In this document: in pieces, positions 6,293-37,185 of the stretch
Position numbering within the stretch: position 1 is the stretch's first letter
Layout: each line of letters opens with the position of its first letter
Source of the DNA: Draconibacterium mangrovi
GTDB lineage: Bacteria > Bacteroidota > Bacteroidia > Bacteroidales > Prolixibacteraceae
Assembly: GCF_010586825.1 (NCBI RefSeq)
Contig: NZ_JAAAGB010000001.1
Span: forward strand, 434,001 to 498,000
Direction: 5' to 3'
DNA length: 64,000 nucleotides
Notes under the pieces: model-generated
The model's input: only the letters and a program-made list of their open reading frames with translations
Databases searched by the model: none
What the model was told of the DNA's origin: nothing
Program-made: the position numbers and the translations under genes

Positions 6293-7423
6293 TTAAGAAA
6301 GAATCACCTTGCCTTCAATTTCTACCAGTAAATCATCGCGGCAAATATCAGCAAGAATATAAACTACCGGCAAATCGCCGTAAAACTTTTTCACCACGCT
6401 ACGAATTTTAGTGAAATCTTTTCGGTTTTTAACGTAAACACGGGTGTGTCCGAATTTTGGATTAGCCACATCGTCGGGCAAGGCAGCCAGCACCTCATCG
6501 GCATACAAACGCTGCATGTTCTGTATGGTAACTTCAGTTTGTTTTGCCGCATCGCCAACACCCACGGTATTTTCGCCGATTATAGATGCGGTTCCTGAAA
6601 TAAAGATCAGCTTTTTATTGCGGTACCTGAAATAACGGGCCCGCTCAAACTTTGGTGTAGTTTTCAGGTTACACGCTTCGCCAACCAAAACCTGTTCGGT
6701 GTATTGATGTGCCGAAATCTGGTCGGGATTGTCAACCGGTTGGGTAAGCACTTCTTTTGATTTTACCGCAACATATTCGATAAGCACACCTCCGTGGCTC
6801 ATTCCTATTCCCGTTGCCGCCGGGTATCCGCTTTGCTCAAAAGTTTTCCCATAGGCATTCGAGCGCACGTTATTAAACTCCTGGTAACGCTGCTCTTCGC
6901 CATCAAAACCCAAAATATCTTCCAGGTAATTCCACTGGCGCACTATCGAATTCAACGGAAACTGCGCTTCCTCAAAGGTCTCAACAAGCTCATCAAAAGC
7001 CTTCTCGGCATTTAACTTACAATCGCTGTTTTGATTGGCATGAACGGTTCCCATCAAAATCTCGGTGGTACCATTCAGAAACAAGGCCGTGCCGTTTTCG
7101 CCTTCCGAAAGCATCTGGCAATCCCAGTTTTCAGGATCGTAATAATACGCCTCAACGATTACCTTACAACTTAATGGCGCTTGCGAAATAAAACTTATCA
7201 GAATTTCGCTTCCTATCAGTTCTCTCACCTGAATACGAAGATCCTTTAGCAGTTTATCGTACTCTGAATTTGAATTGGTATCGACAAAGAAATTTAGTTT
7301 GAAGATCCGTTTCCCTGAATTGATTTTTTCCAGCTGCTCCAGGCAATTTTGAAGTTGCAAACTTAAGCCTTTACAGCCGTTTTCAGGTTTTATATATGTT
7401 CTGTCTCCGTTTAGAAAATACAT
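6293..7423 (-). CDS. Two-domain RidA/YjgF-like protein, chorismatase-like
   Basis: 376 aa from the ATG at 7423. A GTG 33 bases further upstream would also keep the frame, but GAGAGGAGTAGG sits directly before the ATG, which decides the start. The N-terminal half is a diverged RidA-like fold; the C-terminal half has FISGTASIIGENTVGVGD, a QTEVTIQNM helix, VYVKNRKDF and LLVEIEGKV, which fit the YjgF fold. The SGTASI(I/V)G...GD..QTE pattern and overall length recall the FkbO/Hyg5/XanB2 chorismate-cleaving group, which makes hydroxybenzoates or dihydroxycyclohexadienoates from chorismate. I cannot verify the active-site residues, so the reaction stays open. It stands alone, 84 bases or more from deoC. 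Fold confidence is high; activity is inferred. Confidence 0.75.
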   Translation of the reverse strand: MYFLNGDRTYIKPENGCKGLSLQLQNCLEQLEKINSGKRIFKLNFFVDTNSNSEYDKLLKDLRIQVRELIGSEILISFISQAPLSCKVIVEAYYYDPENWDCQMLSEGENGTALFLNGTTEILMGTVHANQNSDCKLNAEKAFDELVETFEEAQFPLNSIVRQWNYLEDILGFDGEEQRYQEFNNVRSNAYGKTFEQSGYPAATGIGMSHGGVLIEYVAVKSKEVLTQPVDNPDQISAHQYTEQVLVGEACNLKTTPKFERARYFRYRNKKLIFISGTASIIGENTVGVGDAAKQTEVTIQNMQRLYADEVLAALPDDVANPKFGHTRVYVKNRKDFTKIRSVVKKFYGDLPVVYILADICRDDLLVEIEGKVILS

Positions 7424-7540
7424 CCTACTCCTCTCACTCAAAAAGAAATGAAGCACAAATATGCGCGTTTTTTACTTGAAAAAGACGATTTCAGTCAAAT
7501 TTCTTGTTACAAGTACAATGAGCTATTCTTACACTTCGCA

Positions 7541-8221
7541 TTAATAGTCACCAGATGCTGTGGCTCCGTTAAGCACTGCCTCTGTTGAACCTATCCCCAA
7601 TCGATCGGCACCCTGCTCCAAAAAAGCAACTGCCGTTTCCCAATCGCGGATACCTCCCGAAGGTTTTACCTGCATTTTATCGCCAACGGTTTTTACCATC
7701 ACCTCGATGTATTCAGGTTTGGCACCACCCGGCCCGAATCCGGTTGATGTTTTCACAAAATCGGCACCTGCTTCGTACGATAATTCGCAGGCTTTGGCAA
7801 TCTGCCCGAGTGTTAAATGGCCACTTTCCTGGATAACTTTTACCAGCACATTGTGTTGGTGAGCCACTTCAACTACGGCTTTAATATCGTCGCGAACATA
7901 ATCGTATTCGCCCGATAAAAAGCGGCCGATATTCATAACCATGTCAATTTCATCGGTACCGTCTTCAATCGCCTGTTTGGCCTGAAAAGCCTTCACCGGT
8001 GTTGCATCAGCCCCGTGCGGAAAACTAAGTACGCACGATACTTTTACCCCACTGTCTTTTAACAATTCTTTGGCGGCCTTTATATCGCAAGGTTTCACGC
8101 ACATACTAAAAACCTTATTCTTAATGCACATTTCTGCATTGGCTTTCAAATCGGCCAGTGTTTGTTCCGGCTTCAAAACCGCGTGGTCGATAGTCTGTGC
8201 TACTTGTTCTTTGGTATACAT
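7541..8221 (-). CDS. deoC: Deoxyribose-phosphate aldolase
   Basis: 226 aa, the usual size. It splits 2-deoxyribose 5-phosphate into glyceraldehyde 3-phosphate and acetaldehyde in deoxynucleoside catabolism. The Schiff-base lysine is K157 in FVKTSTGF, with a second catalytic lysine at K186 in QVKPSGGIRD; D92-E-I-D-M and LGIGS near the C-terminus also match. It is the last gene of a tight minus-strand run (S8 protease, xseA, xseB, DUF2007, deoC), starting 3 bases after the DUF2007 stop. Cytidine deaminase and a deoxynucleoside kinase elsewhere in the window belong to the same nucleoside metabolism. Confidence 0.96.
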   Translation of the reverse strand: MYTKEQVAQTIDHAVLKPEQTLADLKANAEMCIKNKVFSMCVKPCDIKAAKELLKDSGVKVSCVLSFPHGADATPVKAFQAKQAIEDGTDEIDMVMNIGRFLSGEYDYVRDDIKAVVEVAHQHNVLVKVIQESGHLTLGQIAKACELSYEAGADFVKTSTGFGPGGAKPEYIEVMVKTVGDKMQVKPSGGIRDWETAVAFLEQGADRLGIGSTEAVLNGATASGDY

Positions 8222-20881: not shown

Positions 20882-21574
20882 TCAGGAATAAGCTTCTCCG
20901 TAACGGTTTAATTCCAGTATTCCTATTTTTCTGCCTTTAGTTTGTATAAGTCGTTTTTTTCGTAAATCGGATAATATTCGTATTGTATTTTCTTCGTTAG
21001 CTCCAATATGTCCGGCAATTTCCATTCGTTTTATCGAAACGTTTATCATATTGTCCTGGTCCAGGTTAAACCGTTCGCGTAAATCCAGTAACAGGTCAAT
21101 AATCCGCTGCCTGTTCGTTTTCTGCGAAAAACTAAGAATGGTATTTTGTGCGGCTCCCAACTCCCGGCAGCTTTGTTGTAAAAGCATCATCCGAACCTGC
21201 ACATTTTCGGCAAATAGTTTGTTTACAATTTGAATGGGAACAAAAATCAACCGGGCCTTTTCCATGCAGGTTGTAAACTCGGTGGCAGGTATCTGGTTTA
21301 ATGCCGAATCGAAACCCACCATATCGTTATAACAAAGTATCTGATAGATCTGCTCCTTATTTTTCGATCCGATTTTGAACTGTTTTAATACCCCGCGCTC
21401 AATAAAATAAATCCCTTTCAATTTTTGTCCCGGGCGGTAAAGCGTTTCGCCAACATTCAGCTCAACCAACTGTAAATCCTTACTCAAGCCAGCCAGCTCT
21501 TCAAGCGTTAAGTGTTTAAATAAATGAATAAACCTTACGTTTACGGTTGTACTATTTATTCTACTCTTTTTCAA
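20882..21574 (-). CDS. Crp/Fnr-family transcription regulator
   Basis: 230 aa. Residues about 15-125 form the cyclic-nucleotide-binding-like beta roll (LVELNVGETLYRPGQKLKGI, YFIERGVLKQF, YNDMVGFDSAL); about 150-225 the winged helix (QRIIDLLLDLRERF, IKRMEIAGHIGANEENTIRI, LSDLRKKRLIQTKG). It lacks the N-terminal cysteine cluster of FNR, so it probably does not carry an iron-sulfur cluster. The effector is unknown. It lies between the ECF sigma gene of the upstream SusCD locus and the second SusCD locus in the same direction, and is a good candidate to control the second locus. Confidence 0.9.
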   Translation of the reverse strand: MKKSRINSTTVNVRFIHLFKHLTLEELAGLSKDLQLVELNVGETLYRPGQKLKGIYFIERGVLKQFKIGSKNKEQIYQILCYNDMVGFDSALNQIPATEFTTCMEKARLIFVPIQIVNKLFAENVQVRMMLLQQSCRELGAAQNTILSFSQKTNRQRIIDLLLDLRERFNLDQDNMINVSIKRMEIAGHIGANEENTIRILSDLRKKRLIQTKGRKIGILELNRYGEAYS

Positions 21575-21727: not shown

Positions 21728-22336
21728 TTAAAATTGTGATATTTTGAAGAGCAGAGCCAGAAGTGGAAGATATTCTTTCAGTTCGGCGCGTAGTGTTTTT
21801 AAGGCACGGCTAATCAGTGCTTCAACAGCTTTTACCGAGATTCCCATTTTTTCAGCAATCTCGGGATAGGTAAGATTTTCAAAGCGACTGTATTCAAAAG
21901 CAATGCGGCAGCGTTCGGGTAAATTCGATAATACAACAACCAGTTTTTCCTCGAACTCGTGTGCCAAAACCAGGTTTTCGGTGGTGTTTTCAACCTCGTC
22001 GTTTGCGGCTCCCTGCTGATGCGTTTTATTCAACACATTAACCTTTCGCATATGGTCGATACACTGGTTACGCACCATCGAAGTGAGGTAGCTGGGCAGG
22101 TTTTTTATCGACTCAGCCTCTTCGCGTTTTCCCCAAAGTTTAATAAACGATTCCTGAACAATGCCCTGAGCTTCATCAATATCTTTTACATACACCGTTG
22201 CCTGGGCACACAGTGCTTTGTAGTATTTTCTGAAAATAAAGTCGAACGCTCTTTCCTGCCCCCTGGCAAGCTCAGCTAATACGAAGCTATTATTTTGGAT
22301 TTCGCTTTCCGGCATTCCTGTTTTCTCTCGGCTCAA
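21728..22336 (-). CDS. ECF RNA polymerase sigma factor (SusCD-locus type)
   Basis: 202 aa. Sigma region 2 is at about 28-95 (FDFIFRKYYKALCAQATVYV, AQGIVQESFIKLWGKRE, YLTSMVRNQCIDHMRK), region 4 at about 130-185 (LPERCRIAFEYSRFENLTYP, EIAEKMGISVKAVEALISRA). Sigma factors of this kind are held by a FecR anti-sigma factor and freed when an STN-SusC receptor binds ligand. Here the matching FecR gene (29610-30653) is at the opposite end of the same gene row, 7 kb upstream, which is unusual. Probable targets are the FecR-SusC or second SusCD promoters. Confidence 0.93.
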   Translation of the reverse strand: MSREKTGMPESEIQNNSFVLAELARGQERAFDFIFRKYYKALCAQATVYVKDIDEAQGIVQESFIKLWGKREEAESIKNLPSYLTSMVRNQCIDHMRKVNVLNKTHQQGAANDEVENTTENLVLAHEFEEKLVVVLSNLPERCRIAFEYSRFENLTYPEIAEKMGISVKAVEALISRALKTLRAELKEYLPLLALLFKISQF

Positions 22337-22424: not shown

Positions 22425-24695
22425 TCAGCGCATCTCGCTTAACATTTTTAGTGCCGGTTGGTAATTCATTCCGGCTGCAATTTGCAAGTCGTTCCTTGCT
22501 GATGGTTTATCATTGGTTTGCATAAAAAACATTGCACGATTAAAATAAGTTTCGGGGTTATTTGTCGCCTGCGAAACGGCCTGCGAATACACCTCCAGCG
22601 CCTTGTTATTTTCCTGTATTTCCTGGTACACTTTAGCTTTACCAAAATAAGCCGACAAATCGGACGGATTTAAGCGAATTGAAGCCTCGAAGTCTGCCAG
22701 TGCCTCGTCGTATTTTTTGGTAATAGCATGAATAACTCCACGGTTGATATACGTAACATTACTTTCGGGATTCAGCTCGATCGAGCGGTTAAAATCGGCC
22801 AGTGCTTTTTCCAGGTTTCGTTTTTGGCGCCACAACATTCCGCGGTTGCTGTAAGCCATAAAATTAAACTCGTCGATGGCAATGGCGCTGTTAAAATCAT
22901 CTAACGCTTTATCCTCATTTTTTAACGTAAGATTGGCATTTCCACGGCTCAGCAAATATTCCGCTTTCCCGGGATTTAGTTCAACTGCCTTGTTAAAATG
23001 TTTCATTGCTTCAGTTGGCTGTTTCAGCATCATCAGCGCATGTGCTTTGCCATGATGTGCATCCGCGTTTTTGGAATTAAATTCAAGCGCTTTATTAAAA
23101 TATTCCAGCGCTTCCCCGTACTGATTTTCCTTTGATTTGATTTCACCCATACGCAATGCAAAAGCATCGTCTTCCAAAAATTTAGGAACGATTTCAAATT
23201 TTGCTTCGGGCGACATATTAATAAATTCAGGAATATTGGCAGCCCGGTTTCCTGAAGCAAAATACTCGAGATAAACCGGTGGCGAGTCATTTCCATCCTC
23301 GTCAATATGCGTGAGCAACAACTGGGTGTACGGCCCGTATTTTTTCGATGAAAACACCATCCAGCGGCTATTTGGCGAAATCGAGTGCCACGAGTTCATG
23401 TTATCCGAATTACAATTCATTAAACGTGTTTCGCCCCCTTCAACCGGTTGAATATACAGTTTGCTGTCGGGCATTAGCAACATAAAACTTTCGGCTTTAC
23501 AGAAGATCATGTATTTCCCGTCGGGAGTAAAACGTGGAAAATAATTACTCATGCCGTTGTTTGAAGCTCCCGGAACCGGTTCGGCTTTTCCGCCTTTGCC
23601 ATTGTTAAACGGAATGCGGTAAATATCGAACTTAAAAAGTTTTTCGCGTTCTAAAAAAGCATTCAAAAATTTGTTGTACGCCTTATAATCAACAGCTTGC
23701 GAACCTCTGAAAATTCCACTTTCTTCCAGGTGCACAGCACGCGAGCGTGTAAAATAAATGTACTCGCCATTTGGCCCCCAGCTGGGATTGCTGTGTACGT
23801 AATTGGTATCGTTGGCACCTTCCAACTCGAAGTATTTTTCTTCTACCCGATCGTAAACACTCAAAATACCTTTAAACGGAAAAAACAACTGCGAATATTC
23901 GAGGTCGTTGCGGTCGACAAAAATCTCCGAGTCTTTTAATGTACTTACCACGTACCGGCTGTCGGGCGATATTTGCGAAAGCAGACCGTAAGTAAACTCA
24001 CCGTTTACAAAGTTGCTCCAGTTCATAATCTCCTTTTCCGACATAACGGTTTCTTCGCCCACCTCAACAATTGCGTACGCTCCTTTTTCGTCGCGGGCAT
24101 CCACATCCATGGCCAAAGTTCCTCCATCGGCCGAAACCGAATGGCAGTTACCACAAACAGGAATATCGCTTAAAACAGTAGCCGGCGCATCAGATGAGCC
24201 AATGTTGCCCAGTTGCCAACGCACTTCGGTTAAATTTTCGCGGGCAAACTTAAAAGGCAGCGGCACCGAGCGGTAAAAAATGGGTGCTCCAACCGAATCA
24301 GTGGAAAACTGAAAGGAAACCGTATCCACGGGAAATGCTTTTTGTTTATCATCGATAGCTGCCAAAACAAGCGACACTGATTGCTGTTTTGCTTGTTGTT
24401 TAAGCGCTTCCCAAACTTTAGCTGATGGCGACCAGCGCATTTCGCTGCTAACTCTTGATTCGTGCAGAACTTGATTTTCAGCATCCAGCACACTTATCTT
24501 CCACAAAGAAGTTGCGTTGTCAGTAGTTTCCCAAAAACATGTTGGAGACGGAAATTCGGGTGGAAAAACAGTTCCATCGGCCGGATAACTGATTTTCGCA
24601 TCAATTGTTTTGCGAGGCTGCGTATTACACGCCAGCATTAAAACACTTACAGCGAATACGAAAATTGTTTTTACGATGATAGCTTTATTTTGCAT
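22425..24695 (-). CDS. Large lipoprotein with CXXCH motif, propeller-like region and TPR repeats
   Basis: 756 aa with lipoprotein signal MQNKAIIVKTIFVFAVSVLM then LAC (Cys 23). Residues about 35-140 form an Ig/Fn-like segment (ISYPADGTVFPPEFPSPTCF). C181-G-N-C-H185 (24141-24155) is a CXXCH motif, the covalent haem c signature, followed by SVSADGGTLAMD. About 225-480 has WD40/TolB-like (PD40) strands (ISPDSRYVVST, SNPSWGPNGEYIYFTRSR, FPRFTPDGKYMIFCK, HSISPNSRWMVFSSKKYG). About 510-756 is a run of around seven TPRs (ALEYFNKALEFNSKNADAHH, ALADFNRSIELNPESNVTYI). It sits between SusD and the sigma gene, 30 bases after SusD. The role is unknown; a periplasmic sensor or redox scaffold is possible. 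Confidence 0.82.
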   Translation of the reverse strand: MQNKAIIVKTIFVFAVSVLMLACNTQPRKTIDAKISYPADGTVFPPEFPSPTCFWETTDNATSLWKISVLDAENQVLHESRVSSEMRWSPSAKVWEALKQQAKQQSVSLVLAAIDDKQKAFPVDTVSFQFSTDSVGAPIFYRSVPLPFKFARENLTEVRWQLGNIGSSDAPATVLSDIPVCGNCHSVSADGGTLAMDVDARDEKGAYAIVEVGEETVMSEKEIMNWSNFVNGEFTYGLLSQISPDSRYVVSTLKDSEIFVDRNDLEYSQLFFPFKGILSVYDRVEEKYFELEGANDTNYVHSNPSWGPNGEYIYFTRSRAVHLEESGIFRGSQAVDYKAYNKFLNAFLEREKLFKFDIYRIPFNNGKGGKAEPVPGASNNGMSNYFPRFTPDGKYMIFCKAESFMLLMPDSKLYIQPVEGGETRLMNCNSDNMNSWHSISPNSRWMVFSSKKYGPYTQLLLTHIDEDGNDSPPVYLEYFASGNRAANIPEFINMSPEAKFEIVPKFLEDDAFALRMGEIKSKENQYGEALEYFNKALEFNSKNADAHHGKAHALMMLKQPTEAMKHFNKAVELNPGKAEYLLSRGNANLTLKNEDKALDDFNSAIAIDEFNFMAYSNRGMLWRQKRNLEKALADFNRSIELNPESNVTYINRGVIHAITKKYDEALADFEASIRLNPSDLSAYFGKAKVYQEIQENNKALEVYSQAVSQATNNPETYFNRAMFFMQTNDKPSARNDLQIAAGMNYQPALKMLSEMR

Positions 24696-24725: not shown

Positions 24726-26198
24726 CTACGGATTTTGAACTAAGTTATCCTGCACAAGAATTTGCGATTCGGGGATGTAAAACACAACTCGTGGATGATC
24801 GGGAGGCACAAACAACAAGGCGTCACCCTGCTCGTGGGTTCCCGGGTAGTTACGATCCAAAGTCAAACCATTCCGGAAAATATCCCATTTTCGTTGTGCT
24901 TCAAAAGCCAGTTCCAGTCGGCGCTCTTCAAGCACCACTGCCAAAACACTTTCCCGGCCTTTTAAATCGTTTGGAGAATAAAGCGCATCGCCACTTAAAC
25001 CGGCACGTTCACGAATTAAATTCACATCGTTAATGGCCTCGCCGTTTAAGCCCAGTTTGGCATTGGCCTCGGCGCGGTTTAAATACATTTCGGCTAAACG
25101 CAGGTAAACCGGCGAACTTAAAGTGGGCCGCTCTTCCTGCATCGAAAACTTGTTGATGTAGTATATCGGGTAGCCATTTCGTTCTTTTAAAGTAACACCA
25201 TCGCTTTCGTATTGCGGTTCGATAAAAGCATGGCGTGCATCTTCTGGATTCTGGTCAAGCAAATCGCGGTAAGGTTCAGATGCATACATTTCGCCCCAGC
25301 CCTGACTGGCGATGTGATTATACATGGAACCAATTGATTCCCAGCCACGATCATCAACATCAACATTGTGTTTTACCGCAAATATTGTTTCGGTATTTTG
25401 CTCGGGTAATTTTCGGAAATAGGTTTTGAAATCTTCGGTTCCCAAAAGCCGGTATCGGTCGGATTCGATAACTTTACTGGCATATTCTTTTGCTTTTTGC
25501 GCATAGCTTACATTTGGATTTTCGGGTGTGCCCGACATGTACAGATACACGCGCGAGAGCATAGCCTGCGCCACTTCTTTCGACGCATAAATATTCGACC
25601 GTCCGCTTCCCATCAACGCTTCGGCCTGCAACAAATCGGTAATTACCTGGTCGTAAACTTCTTTTACGGTTCCACGATTCGGCACATTTATAACCTGGTC
25701 GTCTAATTTTATTGGAACACCCAGATTCGTCTCCGGACTTTGGTAATAGGGCCTACCAAACGTATTTACCAAGTGAAACAGCGTTTGTGCCCGTAAAAAC
25801 AGATTTTCGCCTTTTAGTTGTTTTAGTTCGGCTGAAGAATCATCGTCAACAGACAAAATCACTTTGTTACAACCCACCATTAACTGGTACGCTTTTTCCC
25901 AGAAGTGAGAGGTGGTATACATAGCCGGGAAATGCTGGTAGTTATAGCAATAAAATAAATCGTCGCTGGTTGTTCCACTCAACGAAACATTATCGCCGCC
26001 ATATTCGCCAAAAAAGTGAAAATTACGCTGGTAATAACCATCTTTCAAATAGTTGTAATTCCCAACAGTGGCACCGTTTAAACCAATAATGTCTTCTTTC
26101 AGTTCCGACTCTGGAATCCCTTCGTAAGGCTGGTAATTTAAGTTACAGCCGAAAGTACCAAATAAAATTAGCAGGTATAAAAACAATCTCCTTATCAT
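24726..26198 (-). CDS. SusD/RagB-family glycan-binding lipoprotein (locus 2)
   Basis: 490 aa from the ATG at 26198, which gives the lipoprotein signal MIRRLFLYLLILFGTFGC; a start 12 bases upstream is possible. SusD landmarks: FLRAQTLFHLVNTFGRPYYQ, MLSRVYLYMSG, RLAEMYLNRAEANAKLGL, VVLEERRLELAFEAQRKW followed by DIFRNGLTLDRNYPG, and the ending IPESQILVQDNLVQNP, almost the same as in the other SusD here. It binds substrate outside the cell for the SusC at 26219-29428, whose stop is about 20 bases upstream. Confidence 0.94.
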   Translation of the reverse strand: MIRRLFLYLLILFGTFGCNLNYQPYEGIPESELKEDIIGLNGATVGNYNYLKDGYYQRNFHFFGEYGGDNVSLSGTTSDDLFYCYNYQHFPAMYTTSHFWEKAYQLMVGCNKVILSVDDDSSAELKQLKGENLFLRAQTLFHLVNTFGRPYYQSPETNLGVPIKLDDQVINVPNRGTVKEVYDQVITDLLQAEALMGSGRSNIYASKEVAQAMLSRVYLYMSGTPENPNVSYAQKAKEYASKVIESDRYRLLGTEDFKTYFRKLPEQNTETIFAVKHNVDVDDRGWESIGSMYNHIASQGWGEMYASEPYRDLLDQNPEDARHAFIEPQYESDGVTLKERNGYPIYYINKFSMQEERPTLSSPVYLRLAEMYLNRAEANAKLGLNGEAINDVNLIRERAGLSGDALYSPNDLKGRESVLAVVLEERRLELAFEAQRKWDIFRNGLTLDRNYPGTHEQGDALLFVPPDHPRVVFYIPESQILVQDNLVQNP

Positions 26199-26218
26199 CG
26201 TGAATTCCATTTGCTGAT

Positions 26219-29200
26219 TTAAAAGTTTACTTCTACTCCAAATATATACTTGCGCGTAACCGGATACAGCGTCCCGCCATATCCTTGAATTCCCACTTCA
26301 GGATCCATTCCTGAAAAGTTGGTTAATGTCCACAGATTTTCGCCGGCAAGTTTTAGCTCGGCACGGTTTAACCCTACTTTATGAACCCAATTTACAGGTA
26401 ATGTATACGATAAACTCAGGTAATTCAGGCGCAGGTAACTACCGTCCTCTAAATAACGCGACGATGGTTTGTTCGACAGTTTATTGCCCAGCAACACCGG
26501 CCGCGGATGTGTGGCAATATCGCCCGGTTTTTCCCAACGGCTCCAACCGTCGGGTAATTTTATTGCGTTATAGGTGGGGTAAGCTCCGTCGTTATCAAGC
26601 GACTCGCGCAACAAATGATAGATTTTATTGCCATAAACAAAGTTAAAGTTGGCATCAAGCTTAAACTGTTTGTAGACGAAGGTATTCATAAAACCTCCAA
26701 AAAATTTGGGCGACGAGCTATCCATGTTTTGTAACGTTGCCTCGCTGTATTTCGATGTTTTTTCAATGATTTTCGTGCCGTCTTCAGCTGTGGTTACTTT
26801 TTCCCATAACGGATTACCATCCGATGGGTTTACACCTGCCCATTTACGCATGTACCAGGTGTTGATATCCCAGCCTTCGCGAATAATTTTGGTACCCTTC
26901 GAAATGTCTTTCCCATCGTTTAATTTCAGCACCTTGTTTTTGTTAAAACTCATATTCAGGCTGGTATTCCATAAAAATGGAGATGACTTTACAATTTCGG
27001 TTTCCAGGCTGAATTCCAGTCCGCGGTTTTGAATTGAGCCCACATTGTCGGTATACCAGTAAAAGCCGGTTACCAATGGCAGCGGAACATCCTGCAGCAG
27101 GTTGTCAGTCCTTTTATCATAGGCATCAACTGTTATGTTTACCCGGTCGAACAATCGTGTATCAATTCCGAAATTGAAGTTTTTGTTCGACTCCCAGGTA
27201 AGATCGGGATTAGGTAACCTGCGCGGAAATCCTCCGGGTTCGCCATTGTATTGCACGGTCATATTGTAAAGCCCCAGCGCTACGTAATCGGCAATATTGG
27301 CATTTCCTACCGAACCATAACTAAGGCGCAGCTTTAAATTATTTACGAAACCAACCGGCTGCATAAAATCCTCTTTTGTGACAATCCACGACGTACCTAC
27401 GGAATAAAAATCTCCGAATCGTTGGTTGGCACCAAATCTCGACGATCCGTCGCGGCGGTACGAAAGCTGCATCATATACTTGTTTTTGTACACGTATTGC
27501 ACATTCGACAAAATGGATAAAAAGGCCGATTTTGATTTACTTCCTCCAATGGATTTTGACTCTGAGGCTCCGTTTAAAATTTCGAGCGAGGGGTAAATAC
27601 CTTTCCCTTCGCCGTTCATTCCATCAATGTACGACTGCGTATACTCGTAAGCTACAATTCCGAATACCGAATGATCAGTATATTCTCTGTTAAAACGCAG
27701 CACATTACTGGTCGACAAATCACGCGTATATCCATAAGCGTTGTATAGAATTCCGGAATCAGCTTCTCCATCCGGTGTACGCGAATCAGAGAGCTGTTCA
27801 AATCGCGATGTTCTTGTTTTAATCCGGTTGTTCGAAACAAATGTAAGCCAGTCGGTGAGTTTGTATTCCACTCCTACGTCGTTCATGTACTGGGTGCTTC
27901 GGCTTTTAATGTAGTTGTATTGCATTTCGTACAAGGGATTGCCCTGATTTCGGCTATACCACTTAACACCATCGGCTTCTGTCCGGCCAACTTTTATTGT
28001 GCCGTCGCTGAAGTAAGGATTATCCCACGGAAGCAGCACATACGAGCCAAACACCAAATCGTTTTCGTTGTTGAAATTATTTTGGAAGATCCCTTCCACT
28101 TTCAGTATCAATTTTAATTTATCAGAAGCTTTATAGTCGAGGTTTACGCGGCCCGAGAACTTTTCCCATTGGTGCCCGCGCGCAGCTCCATCTTCGTTAA
28201 AGTAGCCCAAACTAGTGTACAACATTGTTTTTTCATTTCCGCCGCTGTACGATAAATTATAATCGTGCACAATGCCGTTTTGAAAGGCAATATCCTGCCA
28301 ATCGACTCCATTTATTACATTTTCAGAATTGGCCGGAGGAAACTGCCCCGGTAACTTATCGCCATCCATCGACATCACGTAATCGTACAACTCCTGCCCG
28401 TTCATCAGGGTTAAATTACCGTGATTCACCTGCGTAATTCCGGTACTGGTTTTTAAGTTAAAACTTGATGAGTTAATTTTTCCGGTTTTGGTTCTAACCA
28501 TGATGACACCATTTGAAGCCCGCGAACCGTACAAGGCAGCAGCTGCAGCATCCTTAAGTACCGAAACCGACTCAATATCATTAGGATTTATATCGGGCGA
28601 AGTGGTGCCGAAAATTACCCCGTCAACCACCCAAAGGGGTTCGTTTGTGTAGTTGATCGATCCTTCGCCGCGAATGCGCAGACTGGGTTTTTCGCCGGGT
28701 GTTCCTGACGAACTGGAAACCAGGACTCCTGTTGCTTCACCCTGCAACTGATTCAGCAAGTGTGGGCTGGTTACATTCGCCAACTGTCGCTGGTTAAATG
28801 CCTGAACAGAACCGGTAAGCGAAGATGCCGACTGCGTGCCGTAAGCCACAACGATTACCTCATCAATATTGCGGCTCAACTGGTTCATGGTTACAATTAA
28901 AAATTGCTTATCGGTATAAGTCACCGTCTGGCTTTCCATACCAACAAACGAGAATTCGAGAATTGCCGGTGTTTTAATTACGTTAAGACTAAAATTTCCT
29001 TCAGCATCTGTTACGGCACCCAATATTGTTCCGCGAACGATTACTGTAACTCCCGGTAGTGCTTGCCCCGCCTTGTCAACGACTTTCCCTTCAACAATAA
29101 TTTTATCGCTATCGATTTCATCCACATCAACAGGAAACAGAATTACGAGCCGGTCTTTTATAGTAAAATCCACATTCTGCCCCTCGAAAAGAAGTTCTAC

Positions 29201-29428
29201 AACTTCAATTATGCTCTTGTTTTGGATATTCAAATCAACTTTTCGTTCAACATCCATTAAATTGTTGTTGTATAGAAAATAATATTGATTTTGATTTTCA
29301 ATTTCCAGCAAAACTTCTTTAATGCTTACATCAACCAGATTTAGGCTAATGCGCGAATCCTGCGAATTAGCCTTTATTGAGATAAATGAGAGGGCTAGTA
29401 ATGTTGCTACAAAAATTACCAGTTTCAT
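26219..29428 (-). CDS. SusC-family transporter with N-terminal STN signalling domain
   Basis: 1069 aa. Signal peptide to about residue 22 (VATLLALSFISIKANS); STN (secretin/TonB short N-terminal) domain at about 25-100 (SRISLNLVDVSIKEVLLEIE, FEGQNVDFTIKDRLVILF); CarboxypepD_reg domain at about 113-195 (EGKVVDKAGQALPGVTVIV); plug (SASSLTGSVQAFNQRQL, WVVDGVIFGT, DIESVSVLKDAAAAALYGSR); then the barrel. The STN domain contacts a FecR-type anti-sigma factor, and a FecR gene lies directly upstream (29610-30653). So it is both importer and ligand sensor. It is a clear paralogue of the SusC at 16602-19589. Ligand unknown. Confidence 0.95.
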   Translation of the reverse strand: MKLVIFVATLLALSFISIKANSQDSRISLNLVDVSIKEVLLEIENQNQYYFLYNNNLMDVERKVDLNIQNKSIIEVVELLFEGQNVDFTIKDRLVILFPVDVDEIDSDKIIVEGKVVDKAGQALPGVTVIVRGTILGAVTDAEGNFSLNVIKTPAILEFSFVGMESQTVTYTDKQFLIVTMNQLSRNIDEVIVVAYGTQSASSLTGSVQAFNQRQLANVTSPHLLNQLQGEATGVLVSSSSGTPGEKPSLRIRGEGSINYTNEPLWVVDGVIFGTTSPDINPNDIESVSVLKDAAAAALYGSRASNGVIMVRTKTGKINSSSFNLKTSTGITQVNHGNLTLMNGQELYDYVMSMDGDKLPGQFPPANSENVINGVDWQDIAFQNGIVHDYNLSYSGGNEKTMLYTSLGYFNEDGAARGHQWEKFSGRVNLDYKASDKLKLILKVEGIFQNNFNNENDLVFGSYVLLPWDNPYFSDGTIKVGRTEADGVKWYSRNQGNPLYEMQYNYIKSRSTQYMNDVGVEYKLTDWLTFVSNNRIKTRTSRFEQLSDSRTPDGEADSGILYNAYGYTRDLSTSNVLRFNREYTDHSVFGIVAYEYTQSYIDGMNGEGKGIYPSLEILNGASESKSIGGSKSKSAFLSILSNVQYVYKNKYMMQLSYRRDGSSRFGANQRFGDFYSVGTSWIVTKEDFMQPVGFVNNLKLRLSYGSVGNANIADYVALGLYNMTVQYNGEPGGFPRRLPNPDLTWESNKNFNFGIDTRLFDRVNITVDAYDKRTDNLLQDVPLPLVTGFYWYTDNVGSIQNRGLEFSLETEIVKSSPFLWNTSLNMSFNKNKVLKLNDGKDISKGTKIIREGWDINTWYMRKWAGVNPSDGNPLWEKVTTAEDGTKIIEKTSKYSEATLQNMDSSSPKFFGGFMNTFVYKQFKLDANFNFVYGNKIYHLLRESLDNDGAYPTYNAIKLPDGWSRWEKPGDIATHPRPVLLGNKLSNKPSSRYLEDGSYLRLNYLSLSYTLPVNWVHKVGLNRAELKLAGENLWTLTNFSGMDPEVGIQGYGGTLYPVTRKYIFGVEVNF

Positions 29429-29609: not shown

Positions 29610-30653
29610 CTATTTACTGCGCTCCTTTAATATGATTTTTCTTTTCGAATAAGTACCGTCCTGATCTTTCGATGCCGGATTTATGGAGTATTCAATAGGC
29701 GATGAGATACTGAGGTAATCAAGCACCTGATCGATCGATCCGTTAATGAATGTTGCTGTAAATATCAACTCATTCAAACCGTCGTCAGCAAGTTCAATAT
29801 CCACATTGTACCAATTTTCCAGTTTTTGTACTACCGTTTCAATTCCATCCTCAAAAAATACAATCTTTCCATCTTTCCAGGCATTGTACTTATTCAAACT
29901 CTTTTCTTTTTGAATTACGATATTATGTTTCTCGTTATTGTAAATAGCCACTTCGTTTGGTGTTAACGAAACCAAAGCATCCTCATCGTCGGAATTTGCT
30001 TTAAGAAGACTTACTTTTCCTTCTTTTAGTGCAACCGTTAACTCAGGTGCATTCTCGTAGGCCGAAACATTAAACGCCGTTCCCAGCACTTTAACATCAA
30101 GCGCCGATGTTTGCACAATAAATGGTTTTGCTGCATTTTTTGTCACCTCGAAAAAGGCTTCACCAACCAATTCAATACGTCTTTCTTCCAAATTATCGAA
30201 AGAGTTTGGATAGTGCAGGCGGCTTCCCGAGTTTAACCAAACTTTGGTACCATCAGCCAATTCAAGCTGTGTTTGTGTGCCAAAGGCAGTTGATATATCC
30301 TGGTACACAACATGCTCTTTCTCGTATGACGAAATATGATTATATAGCGAAGAGATGGCAACAGACACCAATAAAACAGCAGCTACCTGCCTTGCAATTA
30401 CCAACCACCGTTTCTTTGAATCGGAAAATGAAATTCGCTCTTTAGTTTTTAGCAAAGAAGCTTCCACATCAATAGCGCCACCAACAACCAAATCTTCCGA
30501 TTTTTTCCATAACTGTTGGTAAGCCTCGTATTCCCGGGCATTCTCTTCCGATTCTGAAATCCACGTGTTGAGCTGCGATTTCTCCTCATCACTCAAACCG
30601 CCAAAAACGGATTTCGAGAGCAGGTGTTCGATATTTTTATTCGTATTGGACAT
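29610..30653 (-). CDS. FecR-family anti-sigma factor
   Basis: 347 aa. The N-terminal cytoplasmic part (about 1-80) binds the sigma factor (LSKSVFGGLSDEEKSQLNTW); a single membrane segment is at about 84-103 (WLVIARQVAAVLLVSVAISS); the periplasmic FecR domain at about 120-260 has FGTQTQLELADGTKVWLNSG, RRIELVGEAFFEVTKNAAKP and VKVLGTAFNVSAYE; a DUF4974-like segment closes it (FFEDGIETVVQKLENWYNVD). It should relay the STN signal of the SusC encoded next to it. Normally the sigma gene precedes FecR; here the only candidate sigma gene in the row is 7 kb downstream at 21728-22336. Confidence 0.95.
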   Translation of the reverse strand: MSNTNKNIEHLLSKSVFGGLSDEEKSQLNTWISESEENAREYEAYQQLWKKSEDLVVGGAIDVEASLLKTKERISFSDSKKRWLVIARQVAAVLLVSVAISSLYNHISSYEKEHVVYQDISTAFGTQTQLELADGTKVWLNSGSRLHYPNSFDNLEERRIELVGEAFFEVTKNAAKPFIVQTSALDVKVLGTAFNVSAYENAPELTVALKEGKVSLLKANSDDEDALVSLTPNEVAIYNNEKHNIVIQKEKSLNKYNAWKDGKIVFFEDGIETVVQKLENWYNVDIELADDGLNELIFTATFINGSIDQVLDYLSISSPIEYSINPASKDQDGTYSKRKIILKERSK

Positions 30654-32502: not shown

Positions 32503-33876
32503 CTATTCGGGCTTAACAATATTGCTTATGTTTACTATAAGAATTTGAGCTTCATGCTCTGTTTCCGCTTCGGCATAAATCCTGATAATAGGTTCAGTAT
32601 TCGACTTGCGCAAGTGAACCCAACCCGTAGGAAAATTAATTTTTACCCCATCGATACAGTTACATGGATATTTCGCATATTTTTTGCGAACTCCATCAAG
32701 AATTATATCCAGATCAATATTATCTTCCAACTCTAATTTATGCTTTACCATCTTGTAATCGGCATATTGCGCCCTTAATTCTGACGACGATTTTTTTGAG
32801 TTTGCGAGGTGAGTTAAAAACAAGGCAACGCCAGCCAAGGCATCCCTCCCATAATGAAGTTCGGGATAAATTATCCCACCATTACCTTCTCCACCAATGG
32901 CTGCTTTTTGCTCTTTCATCTCTTTTACAACATTTACTTCGCCTACTGCAGACTCGAAATACCCGACACCGTGTTTTTGGGCAATGTCTTTTAATGCCAT
33001 AGTTGATGACAAGTTCGCCACTAAAGAACCTTTAGAATTTTCAAGAATATAGTCGGCAACAGAAACCAGGGTGTATTCTTCTCCAAATGGTTCGCCGTTT
33101 TCGCAAACTAAAGCCAGTCGATCTACATCAGGGTCTACTATAATTCCAAGATCAAGCTGTGTGTTCTTTACCAGCGAGCATATTTCATTTATGTTTTCAG
33201 GCAAAGGTTCCGGGTTATGTGCAAACTCTCCATCGGGTGTGCAATTAATTTCTTTTATGGTTTTAACTCCTAAAGCCTTTAATAGCTTTGGAATTGCAAT
33301 GCCTCCAACAGAGTTTACGGCATCAACCGCTACAGAAAAACCGGCTTGTTCAATTTGTTTTACATTAACGAGTGGAAGATTTAAGATATGCTCGATGTGC
33401 TTATCCAAATAATCTTCTTTTGAATAAGTGCCTAAATCATCCACTTCGTTAAAAGTATATTCCTGGCTTTCCACCATATTTAGTAAATCCTTACCATCTT
33501 GGTCAGAAATAAATTCACCCTGCCTATTCAATAGTTTTAAGGCATTCCAGTTTTTAGGATTGTGACTCGCAGTTATTATAATTCCTCCTCCTGCATTGTA
33601 ATCGGTTACGGCCATCTCAACAGAGGGTGTTGTTGCCAAACCCAGGTCGATCACATCTATTCCTACAGAAAGTAAAGCACCTACAACAAGCTGATTTACC
33701 ATTTCACCGCTTATTCGTGCATCGCGGCCTATTATTATCTTTTTATTACCACCACTTTTCTTTAACCAAACACCAAAAGCACTTGAAATACTTACGATAT
33801 CCATTGGTGTTAATGCCTCTCCTGGCTTTCCGCCAATTGTTCCTCTTATTCCGGAAATTGATTTTATGAGTGTCAT
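32503..33876 (-). CDS. glmM: Phosphohexomutase of GlmM type
   Basis: 457 aa. Alpha-D-phosphohexomutase fold with the phosphoserine loop TASHNP (S104), metal loop DPDVDR (248-253, Val in place of the common Ala), sugar loop GEGNGG (329-334) and phosphate loop RKSNTEP near the C-terminus. GlmM interconverts glucosamine 6- and 1-phosphates, while relatives use N-acetylhexosamine or mannose phosphates. As last gene of the operon it starts 3 bases after the nucleotidyltransferase stop, so it may work on the N-acetylhexosamine 1-phosphate made by the kinase rather than only in cell-wall synthesis. A second copy elsewhere in the genome would support that. Confidence 0.88.
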   Translation of the reverse strand: MTLIKSISGIRGTIGGKPGEALTPMDIVSISSAFGVWLKKSGGNKKIIIGRDARISGEMVNQLVVGALLSVGIDVIDLGLATTPSVEMAVTDYNAGGGIIITASHNPKNWNALKLLNRQGEFISDQDGKDLLNMVESQEYTFNEVDDLGTYSKEDYLDKHIEHILNLPLVNVKQIEQAGFSVAVDAVNSVGGIAIPKLLKALGVKTIKEINCTPDGEFAHNPEPLPENINEICSLVKNTQLDLGIIVDPDVDRLALVCENGEPFGEEYTLVSVADYILENSKGSLVANLSSTMALKDIAQKHGVGYFESAVGEVNVVKEMKEQKAAIGGEGNGGIIYPELHYGRDALAGVALFLTHLANSKKSSSELRAQYADYKMVKHKLELEDNIDLDIILDGVRKKYAKYPCNCIDGVKINFPTGWVHLRKSNTEPIIRIYAEAETEHEAQILIVNISNIVKPE

Positions 33877-33879
33877 CTA

Positions 33880-34800
33880 TCAGATCTTATTAAATAATAT
33901 ATTATCCCACAATTTTGATGGGTAGATGCCTTTTTCTACCAGTGCATCTATACATGCCACTGCCTTTTCCTTATCCTCTTTATAGGTAACGCCAAACCAC
34001 TGTGCATCAGATCTTATCATTTTCACTCTTGTTTCACCTTCACTAATAATTTTACTTACAACAGATGGAATAAAAAACTCTGATTTTAATTCCTGGCCGT
34101 ACTCTTTAATGAAAGCGGAAAATTGAGAGTCCAAATAACGAAACAAAGCAGGAGTAAAACCCCAAAAATTCATAGAAACAATTGTTTGGGTGTCCATAAA
34201 AATCCACTTTTGGAGCTCGCGATAGGCAATTCCGTCATTCTTCTTTTCGATATGCGTTCTTTCGATAACCGACAACAAATGATCGTTCTCATCCGTACTA
34301 CAAACACCTCTGGAAACAAATCCATTCTCAGATATTGTATTTTGTAACTGATAACCAATCATTCCAAACTTACTATCAGCACATTCATGCTTTAAAAATT
34401 CGGCCATTGTAAAAAAGGCCTCCCTCCCGTAATAATCGTCTGCATTAATTACCGCAAATGGCTCGTTTATACAATCTTTTGCCATTAAAATAGCATGTCC
34501 GGTGCCCCAGGGTTTCGATCTTTCCGGCGTATATTTGCATCCCACAGGAACTTTTTCTATTTCCTGCGTTACAAATTCTGCCTCAATTTTGCCCTCCAGC
34601 TTTTTATTAAAAAGATTTATGAACTCTTCTTTAAAACTTTCGCGGATAACAAAAACTATCTTACCAAATCCGGCATCAATAGCATCATTAATCGAGTAAT
34701 CAATAATTGTCTCACCGGAAGGGCCAATGGGATCTATTTGTTTTAAACCTCCGTAACGGCTTCCCATTCCTGCAGCTAATACTAATAATGTTGGTTTCAT
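33880..34800 (-). CDS. Sugar-1-phosphate nucleotidyltransferase
   Basis: 306 aa. It has the nucleotidyltransferase signature LAAGMGSRYGGLKQ (8-21), a GPSGETIIDYSINDA acceptor-site segment, SKPWGTGHAILMAKD and the metal loop NADDYYG (119-125). It transfers a nucleotidyl group, probably UMP, to a sugar 1-phosphate. Position between a NahK-like kinase and a GlmM-like mutase points to an N-acetylhexosamine 1-phosphate as substrate, giving UDP-GlcNAc or UDP-GalNAc. The nucleotide and sugar choices are inference; the enzyme class is clear. Confidence 0.85.
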   Translation of the reverse strand: MKPTLLVLAAGMGSRYGGLKQIDPIGPSGETIIDYSINDAIDAGFGKIVFVIRESFKEEFINLFNKKLEGKIEAEFVTQEIEKVPVGCKYTPERSKPWGTGHAILMAKDCINEPFAVINADDYYGREAFFTMAEFLKHECADSKFGMIGYQLQNTISENGFVSRGVCSTDENDHLLSVIERTHIEKKNDGIAYRELQKWIFMDTQTIVSMNFWGFTPALFRYLDSQFSAFIKEYGQELKSEFFIPSVVSKIISEGETRVKMIRSDAQWFGVTYKEDKEKAVACIDALVEKGIYPSKLWDNILFNKI

Positions 34801-34828
34801 TTTATTATTTTTTGATAGCTGTTTGTTA

Positions 34829-35917
34829 TTAAAGAATTGACTTGACCACTATTTTCATCTCATCATATTGCTTTTCAATACTTTGCAATAATTTGTATTG
34901 AGCATGTGTACGCACCAGGTTATGCCCGGCATACTTTATTTTATAGTAATTATCGCCATCGATATAATCCATTAAAAACCTCAACACCTGTTCGTATGTA
35001 ATGTATTTGGCCGAGAATGCCAGGTGATCTAACTCCACTGGGGTTAAAAATGATTTCGCTTCTGAAAGATACCCCCGGGTATACGCCTCAAAAATTTTCA
35101 CATCCATTGTAACCTTATCCAGATCTTTATCATCCTCTGATCCGGTATTTGCATAAGACCTAATGGCATCTCCGAAGTCGTTTAAAGCGGTGCTGCTTAA
35201 CACGGTATCCAAATCAATTACACAAAGCACCTCTCCTTTATCGTCGAATAGGATATTGTTAATTTTGGTATCATTATGAGTAACTCTTGTTGGTATAACG
35301 CCAGCTTCAACTTTCTTCCAGAATTCAAGCATCTCCTCCCTTCTTTCTTCAATCCAGGCGATCTCCTTGCCCAGAACCTTTTTACGATTAACCGGATCTT
35401 TAGCCAACACTTCGTCCCACTGCTTAAATCGAAAACGTATATCGTGAAAACCAGGTAGGATATCGGATAGTTTTCCTGTAAAGTCCGAGGTCATTCGCTG
35501 AAATTTACCAATCCCCTTGCCACCGGAATAGGCTAATTCAGGAGTATCGGCAGCTTCGTATGTTACACTGCCTGCAATAAACAAACAAACCGCCCAGTAT
35601 TCTTCCTCTTGATCGATATAATAAAGTGCTCCTTCTTTTGTTTTAATTACAGTTAGTGCCTCACGCATTACATCACCTCCCTGGGCGCTAATCTTTTTCT
35701 TCAGATGTGAGGTAATCCTTTCAATATTGTCCATCATTGCAGGTACATCCGTGAAGATATTCTTATTCTTTCGCTGCATCAGGTAATTGGGAGAATCATC
35801 CGCTTCCGTTTCAATGATATATGTGTCATTGATAAAACCTTCTCCCAGAGGAGTTATTTTTTTCACTTCGCCTTCCAGTTGAAAGTACTTAGCTATTTCG
35901 TACAAATTCGCTTCCAT
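34829..35917 (-). CDS. APH-fold sugar kinase, NahK-like N-acetylhexosamine 1-kinase
   Basis: 362 aa. Aminoglycoside-phosphotransferase fold: nucleotide loop PLGEGFINDTYII (23-35), catalytic loop THNDTKINN (213-221, Asp216) and metal motif CVIDLDTVL (232-240, Asp235). The HNDTKxNN form is characteristic of N-acetylhexosamine 1-kinases (NahK/LnpB group), which phosphorylate the anomeric hydroxyl of GlcNAc or GalNAc. No antibiotic-resistance context is present; it follows the sugar permease by 20 bases and precedes the nucleotidyltransferase by 28. NahK assignment is by motif and context. Confidence 0.82.
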   Translation of the reverse strand: MEANLYEIAKYFQLEGEVKKITPLGEGFINDTYIIETEADDSPNYLMQRKNKNIFTDVPAMMDNIERITSHLKKKISAQGGDVMREALTVIKTKEGALYYIDQEEEYWAVCLFIAGSVTYEAADTPELAYSGGKGIGKFQRMTSDFTGKLSDILPGFHDIRFRFKQWDEVLAKDPVNRKKVLGKEIAWIEERREEMLEFWKKVEAGVIPTRVTHNDTKINNILFDDKGEVLCVIDLDTVLSSTALNDFGDAIRSYANTGSEDDKDLDKVTMDVKIFEAYTRGYLSEAKSFLTPVELDHLAFSAKYITYEQVLRFLMDYIDGDNYYKIKYAGHNLVRTHAQYKLLQSIEKQYDEMKIVVKSIL

Positions 35918-35937
35918 ATTTATTTATTTTCTGATTG

Positions 35938-37185
35938 TTATTTTCTGATTTTATATCCTTTTACTGCAAAAAACAGAATGTAGAGGTATGATGGAATGTA
36001 AATCCAAAAAGCACTTTTATAATTGGCTACTGTAATCAATTCAGTTGTTTTTACCATATCGATAATAAATCCAAATATGAATGGAATGATGGCACCTCCC
36101 ACTATACCCATTACAAGTAACGAAGCACCGGTTTTGGTAAATTTGCCCAAATCAGCTATTGCCAATGGCCAAATGGCAGGCCACATTAATGAGTTTGCAA
36201 AACCAATTAATGCCATTGCATAAATCCCTAATTCACCTGGTAACAAAATTAGCATCAAAGCTGCCCCAATACCAATAAAACTAAAAGCTTTTAGTGCGGT
36301 TGACTGCGACATATATTTGGGTATCATAAACACACCAAATAAGTAACCAATAACCAAGCCTAATGGAACATAAACGGAGAAGCTATCCAGGTTTCTGGCC
36401 GTATCACCAAACACAGCTTTGGCATAACCAATTATCGAAACCATTGGAAGTGTTTCAACTCCTACGTACACAAATAAAGCGGCTACTCCCAGCAATAGAT
36501 GCGGAAACTGAAAAATACTTGACTTAGATGAAGCATCTCCGGTAGATCCATCTGTGTTGTCGTCTTCCTCTCCTTCTGCTTTTACTTCCGGTAATGGAGC
36601 CCAAATCATAAAAACACCTAACGCCAATAATATACCGGTTACGATATAAAAAGGCAGTGTGACATCTTCCAGTTTTACATTTTTCAGGTCAAGGAAGATT
36701 CCCAAAAATAATGAAGATAGCCACCATGCTGATTTGTTCATTATTCCCATCAAACTCATCCTCATTGCTGCGCTTTCTTTTGGGCCAATTATAGTTACAT
36801 AAGGATTTACTGAAGCCTGTAATACTGTATTACCAATACCTCCAATAAACAAGGCCAGTAAAAACAACGGAAAACTTAAATATTTTGAAGAAGGAATAAA
36901 CAAAAACATACCCAATGCCATAATAAAAAAGGCAATTACCATCCCGTTTTTATAGCCTACCTTTTTAATAATGGCTCCGGCCGGGGCTCCAAATATTACA
37001 AAGGCAGAAAAAATGGCGACTGTAACCAGATAGGATTGAGAGGTTGACAAATGGAAAGCATCTTGTAAAAATGGTGTTAAGAAACCACTAATTCCGATTC
37101 CAAAGCCTATTACAAAAAACAGTATACTAACAATTGCCAATGGCAACAAATAATTACTCCGATTCACTTGTATCGATTTTTTCAT
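35938..37185 (-). CDS. Sugar MFS permease (FucP/NagP group)
   Basis: 415 aa, 12 predicted membrane segments split by an acidic loop at about residues 202-220 (KAEGEEDDNTDGSTGDASSK). The N-terminal motif FFVIGFGIGISGFLTPFLQ, PNPYV-like SVNPYVTIIGP and FANSLMWPAIWPLAIADLGK are typical of the FucP/NagP/GluP family of sugar:proton symporters in the inner membrane. As first gene of the operon after the LacI regulator, it most likely imports the sugar that the NahK-like kinase phosphorylates, so N-acetylglucosamine or N-acetylgalactosamine. Operator candidates and a -7 element lie upstream. Confidence 0.88.
   Translation of the reverse strand: MKKSIQVNRSNYLLPLAIVSILFFVIGFGIGISGFLTPFLQDAFHLSTSQSYLVTVAIFSAFVIFGAPAGAIIKKVGYKNGMVIAFFIMALGMFLFIPSSKYLSFPLFLLALFIGGIGNTVLQASVNPYVTIIGPKESAAMRMSLMGIMNKSAWWLSSLFLGIFLDLKNVKLEDVTLPFYIVTGILLALGVFMIWAPLPEVKAEGEEDDNTDGSTGDASSKSSIFQFPHLLLGVAALFVYVGVETLPMVSIIGYAKAVFGDTARNLDSFSVYVPLGLVIGYLFGVFMIPKYMSQSTALKAFSFIGIGAALMLILLPGELGIYAMALIGFANSLMWPAIWPLAIADLGKFTKTGASLLVMGIVGGAIIPFIFGFIIDMVKTTELITVANYKSAFWIYIPSYLYILFFAVKGYKIRK

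Follow-up and report, generated by a model that had tools for sequence, protein, structure and literature searches.

What is a lipoprotein with a CXXCH motif doing in a SusCD locus of Draconibacterium mangrovi: is it a component of the sugar importer, a sensor that reports on it, or a redox protein in its own right? The gene that raises this question lies in the window (the whole 64,000-nt stretch of DNA analyzed here), and its position, its relatives and their gene neighborhoods were used to answer it.

A CXXCH-bearing lipoprotein within a SusCD locus

The gene is an intact ORF on the minus strand (Table 1); the plus strand of the same interval contains stops throughout. It is separated by 30 nt from a SusD gene upstream and by 88 nt from an ECF sigma factor gene downstream, so the sequence-only reading rightly placed it inside a SusCD locus. 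Further upstream follow an STN-bearing SusC, a FecR anti-sigma factor and a GH109-like oxidoreductase, and further downstream a CRP/FNR-type regulator, an F5/8-type C protein, a second SusC/SusD and a DUF3472 protein. A promoter and terminator scan returned counts at chance level (24 vs. 22.5; 7 vs. 11.8). The regulator gene, located between the sigma factor gene and the second SusCD (20882–21574, minus strand), is retained in D. orientale and D. sediminis. The oxidoreductase gene adjoins a row of consecutive minus-strand genes (32503–37185) for an MFS transporter, an APH-type kinase, a nucleotidyl transferase and a phosphohexomutase, which resembles a sugar salvage pathway.

The protein itself opens with a hydrophobic stretch that ends in a lipobox. 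Its PD40 region scored 49.1 bits against a PF07676 cut-off of 20.9; the seven 34-residue TPR units were laid out by eye, with a home-made HMM scoring six of them. Among the 46 non-overlapping window ORFs of at least 120 aa, this is the only one to contain a CXXCH; by chance, a protein of this size would hold ~0.0006 such motifs at the composition of the window. The lipobox, C181-G-N-C-H185 and the Pfam scores thus confirmed the initial description of a lipidated protein with a CXXCH, PD40-like strands and seven TPRs.

Table 1. Coordinates of the lipoprotein gene, its parts and its neighbors in the window
Feature	Position	Strand	Basis
CXNCH-propeller-TPR lipoprotein	22425..24695	minus	intact 756-aa ORF, ATG at 24695
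Signal peptide and lipobox M-L-A-C23 (residues 1–23)	24627..24695	minus	sequence
N-terminal beta domain (residues about 35–165)	24201..24593	minus	conservation; strands in low-confidence models only
C181-G-N-C184-H185, presumed covalent haem-c attachment site	24141..24155	minus	motif in 120/120
PD40/TolB-like propeller region (residues about 190–490)	23226..24128	minus	PF07676, generic PDB propeller matches
His437 (S-W-H-S, last PD40-like repeat), candidate distal axial ligand	23385..23387	minus	kept in 117/119; proposed role
Seven TPR units (residues 510–747)	22455..23168	minus	PF00515 and other TPR families above Pfam cut-offs
SusD-like lipoprotein, upstream neighbor	24726..26210	minus	PF07980, PF14322
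SusC/RagA with STN domain	26219..29428	minus	TIGR04056, PF07660
FecR anti-sigma factor	29610..30653	minus	PF04773, PF16344
ECF sigma factor, downstream neighbor	21728..22336	minus	TIGR02985

The motif is invariant across the family

Loss of the cysteines or the histidine among homologues would have refuted the sequence-only reading. In a first sample of 40 loci, the motif was present in 38 proteins, and the other two were cut by a contig end. A larger sample took in nearly all matches of a family survey as well as distant and gut relatives; 123 of its ORFs scored above 40 bits, and three of these were left out: two lacking the motif region (L006 and L084, both cut off) and L148, which at 40.4 bits and with neither CXNCH nor H437 is another PD40 protein rather than a family member. 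The remaining 120 sequences span the motif, and C-x-N-C-H is kept in all of them in the alignment; no such loss was found. Its C, N, C and H are the only residues invariant across all 120 alignment rows. Of five additional, more distant long forms, four have CGNCH and one is cut by its contig.

Where the respective column is present, R142 and W445 are kept in 119/119 sequences and P38 and P45 in 118/118; P38, P45 and R142 fall within the N-terminal beta domain. The last PD40-like repeat contains S-[WY]-H-S, whose His437 is found in 117 of 119 sequences and replaced by serine in two short forms (L113 and L138), both of which keep CXNCH. Among close relatives, the D. orientale and D. sediminis proteins match the first 510 residues at 95% and 98% identity, and gene order is the same. 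Compared with D. orientale, residues 181–300 show zero amino-acid changes at a dS of 0.437 and residues 166–490 a dN of 0.0078 at a dS of 0.554; the N-terminal domain differs at 20 residues and the TPRs at 23. AlphaFold models had mean pLDDT values of 35.0 and 30.6, from an input of only three sequences, 93–98% identical to the first.

Two clades, one of them paired with DUF6057

Assigned by profile scores, the family consists of 28 long forms, like the Draconibacterium protein, and 94 short forms of about 500 aa. Homology between the two extends over 401 columns, with 21% identity, and both have CXNCH; the long clade is monophyletic in a tree of 119 sequences (support 1.0). TPR units of their own are carried by 24 of the 28 long forms and are absent from the short sister clade. 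Short forms are instead adjoined by a co-directional gene for a DUF6057 protein (PF19529) in 93 of 94 cases, and long forms in none of 28; DUF6057 calls were Pfam-confirmed for five and otherwise made by a home-made HMM. The sole short form without such a neighbor is a fragment of 174 aa, located where its contig ends. Three genomes (G303, G344 and G380) contain DUF6057 without a propeller at the threshold used, so the pairing has exceptions.

By hydropathy alone, about seven membrane helices are predicted for the first half of DUF6057; the soluble half of the protein may be TPR-like, as weakly suggested by an hhalign probability of 58%. Up to three DUF6057-propeller pairs occur in tandem per locus (L077, L081, L086, L084 and L115), and such tandems often follow SusCD, a 277-aa protein without Pfam match and a DUF4369 protein. 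In another arrangement, two adjacent, divergent long-form propellers of 953 and 607 aa lie on one contig (L155 and L159, G541 contig 39).

Across the phylum the family is uncommon: 5 of 296 genomes match it in long or short form, and in the order the long form occurs in 6 of 295. Within Prolixibacteraceae, 46 of 100 genomes match. DUF6057-propeller pairs are also present in gut Parabacteroides, Bacteroides fragilis and Phocaeicola records. The gut Parabacteroides "PD40 domain-containing protein" that sits beside a "DUF6057 family protein" belongs to the short-form clade, differing from the long form by the missing TPR tail and the pairing with DUF6057; CxNCH is kept in 7/7 gut members. Viral contigs scanned with the family profiles contained no relative, and neither did PHROGs. 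Searching the titles and abstract openings of the literature yielded no paper for DUF6057 by name and nothing in print on the CXNCH propellers, which are most likely an undescribed family.

Haem, zinc or disulfide

The marks of a c-type cytochrome include, besides covalently attached haem and a distal axial ligand close to it, a CXXCH that is kept among homologues of an exported protein and maturation machinery in the same cell. The motif was found in 120/120 sequences; as to the machinery, the host genome encodes two fused CcsA-ResB haem-c synthetases of the CcsBA type (1026 and 1057 aa). In a CcsBA-bearing cell, an exported protein with a CXXCH is a normal substrate for haem attachment. CcsA was detected in 45 of 46 propeller-bearing Prolixibacteraceae genomes, the exception being 86% complete (G320), and in 7/7 propeller genomes of other families at 90% completeness or more, with an eighth (G549, 83% complete) lacking it. 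This co-occurrence is weakly consistent with a haem-c protein but carries little weight, because CcsA is near-universal (94 of 100 genomes of the family). A motif unchanged between clades that are only 21% identical is the stronger argument for haem.

Alternatively, structural zinc bound by C181, C184, H185 and H437, or a disulfide between the two cysteines, could staple the N-terminal domain to the propeller without any haem. Conservation of H437 alongside CXNCH would offer a ready Cys2His2 set, and neither Pfam nor NCBIfam returned a match to a curated cytochrome c family. Against zinc speak the adjacency of C184 and H185, which makes their joint binding to one ion unfavorable, and the two members that retain CXNCH without H437; a disulfide would require neither the histidine nor the asparagine. 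As haem attachment is also the usual fate of such an exported motif where CcsBA is present, we regard zinc or a disulfide as unlikely. The haem-attachment motif never changes, and the protein is therefore most likely a single-haem c-type cytochrome of a new kind rather than a component of the sugar importer.

No redox enzyme was a constant neighbor of family members. At one locus, a 588-aa protein with two CXXCH motifs and a MauG-type di-haem domain is encoded two genes after a long-form propeller (L051:12207-13970).

Membrane face and relation to SusCD

A lipobox or a hydrophobic N-terminus was present in 115 of 119 members examined; of the other four, three have a lipobox-like cysteine missed by the pattern and one is cut. 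Most members carry a lipobox and others a hydrophobic anchor without one. In Bacteroidota, acidic residues following the lipobox cysteine mark lipoproteins for surface export. Across positions +2 to +6, the mean number of acidic residues is 0.62 for 93 family members, compared with 1.97 for 35 SusD proteins from the same loci; the Draconibacterium protein reads N-T-Q-P-R there, devoid of the acidic export signature. From these acid-poor positions, the lipoproteins probably face the periplasm, with SusD facing outward, and so are probably not at the surface beside SusCD.

This bears on a further proposal of the sequence-only reading, namely that the protein senses haem or redox state and either gates SusCD or signals to the sigma factor. 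The order SusC-SusD-propeller-sigma is indeed retained in D. orientale, D. sediminis and genome G378 (L004, L005 and L047), as such a sensor would suggest. In the family at large, though, a minority of members have SusC or SusD within three same-strand genes (long forms, 10 of 28; short forms, 13 of 94); linkage is not constant, association with SusCD or a sigma factor is not a family trait, and its infrequency argues against gating between receptor and sigma factor. Signaling in the locus is, moreover, already served by the FecR anti-sigma factor and the STN-bearing SusC, and the residues after the lipobox are unlike those of a surface lipoprotein. A sensor of this type therefore appears very improbable. 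Of the earlier proposal, the redox part is supported, by the invariant CXNCH and the CcsBA synthetases, while the signaling part is not.

Relation to known propellers and haem proteins

Profile searches against the PDB retrieved only generic propellers (2ojh, TolB and acyl-peptide hydrolase) plus weak chance matches. TolB-type propellers have PD40 repeats in common with the family, and TolB-like scores were obtained for 16/16 short forms scanned; the Draconibacterium protein reaches 28.1 bits, far below the TolB cut-off of 343. We know of no TolB with a CXXCH. Hydrazine synthase alpha and HzsA-related proteins (PF18582), found in Bacteroidota as well, likewise have a CXXCH along with a PD40-like region in a single polypeptide, but their motif is C-terminal, after the PD40-like region, whereas that of the CXNCH family precedes the propeller. 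Kinship with hydrazine synthase was rejected given the reversed order, an hhalign probability of 0.4% and the lack of an HZS_alpha match in genome G000.

Cytochrome cd1, MauG-type and similar proteins combine a haem-c site and a propeller within one polypeptide or complex, and carry a separate cytochrome c or di-haem domain. The CXNCH family differs in that its motif is located on a short linker only. Haem-c proteins with propellers are hence a kind already known, within which this family would be new and its haem putative. A further point of comparison comes from Cellvibrio, a genus outside the Bacteroidota. In the literature searched, the sole paper found to join a c-type cytochrome, a polysaccharide utilization locus and SusD deals with Cbp2D and Cbp2E of Cellvibrio japonicus (PMC12542752).

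Proposed mechanism

In the mechanism that we propose, C181 and C184 would receive their haem from CcsBA, and H185 would act as proximal ligand. The haem site would lie between the N-terminal beta domain and the PD40 propeller. For the distal ligand, the best candidate is H437, which belongs to the last PD40-like repeat and is nearly invariant. The TPR tail may dock a partner protein, and in the sister clade this tail would be replaced by a separate membrane protein, DUF6057. Docked in either way, the module would most likely exchange electrons with a substrate or partner on the periplasmic side of the membrane. In Draconibacterium, it may have been recruited into a SusCD operon to process what SusCD imports. 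We put at roughly 60% the probability that the protein is anchored in the membrane, faces the periplasm, represents an undescribed family of mono-haem c-type propellers and works in this manner.

If true, haem-c in a propeller without a classical cytochrome domain would represent a new cytochrome architecture, DUF6057 would gain a testable partner and function, and redox chemistry would enter loci usually interpreted as sugar import alone.

A chorismatase-like gene near some propellers

A gene resembling chorismatases (PF21168) was matched 52 times in 47 of the 100 Prolixibacteraceae genomes, usually as a single copy. By manual comparison of positions, at most 6 kb separate it from a propeller in seven of these 47 genomes, and it is also near one in three more distant genomes (G160, G078 and G039; L060, L069 and L070). 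A crude binomial estimate puts the chance of this proximity at 6e-9, uncorrected for relatedness. The family might accordingly comprise haem enzymes of a chorismate-derived aromatic pathway, with the propeller face binding a hydroxybenzoate-type compound that the haem oxidizes or reduces. Yet the gene is located elsewhere in 40 of the 47 genomes and is 16 kb from the propeller in the window, and several of the seven cases are similar tandem short-form loci, leaving a dedicated enzyme of that pathway highly doubtful.

The preferred reading of a periplasmic electron carrier can be extended to the family as a whole. At somewhat less than even odds, CxNCH propellers would constitute an unrecognized class of periplasmic mono-haem redox proteins in Bacteroidota, gut commensals included, that act in complex with DUF6057 or on a TPR scaffold of their own and make up a redox system linked with SusCD-type import and, in certain lineages, with aromatics derived from chorismate.

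In the window, the chorismatase-like gene (PF21168 plus PF01042) and a DeoC-like aldolase gene upstream of it occupy 6293–7456 and 7541–8221 on the minus strand.
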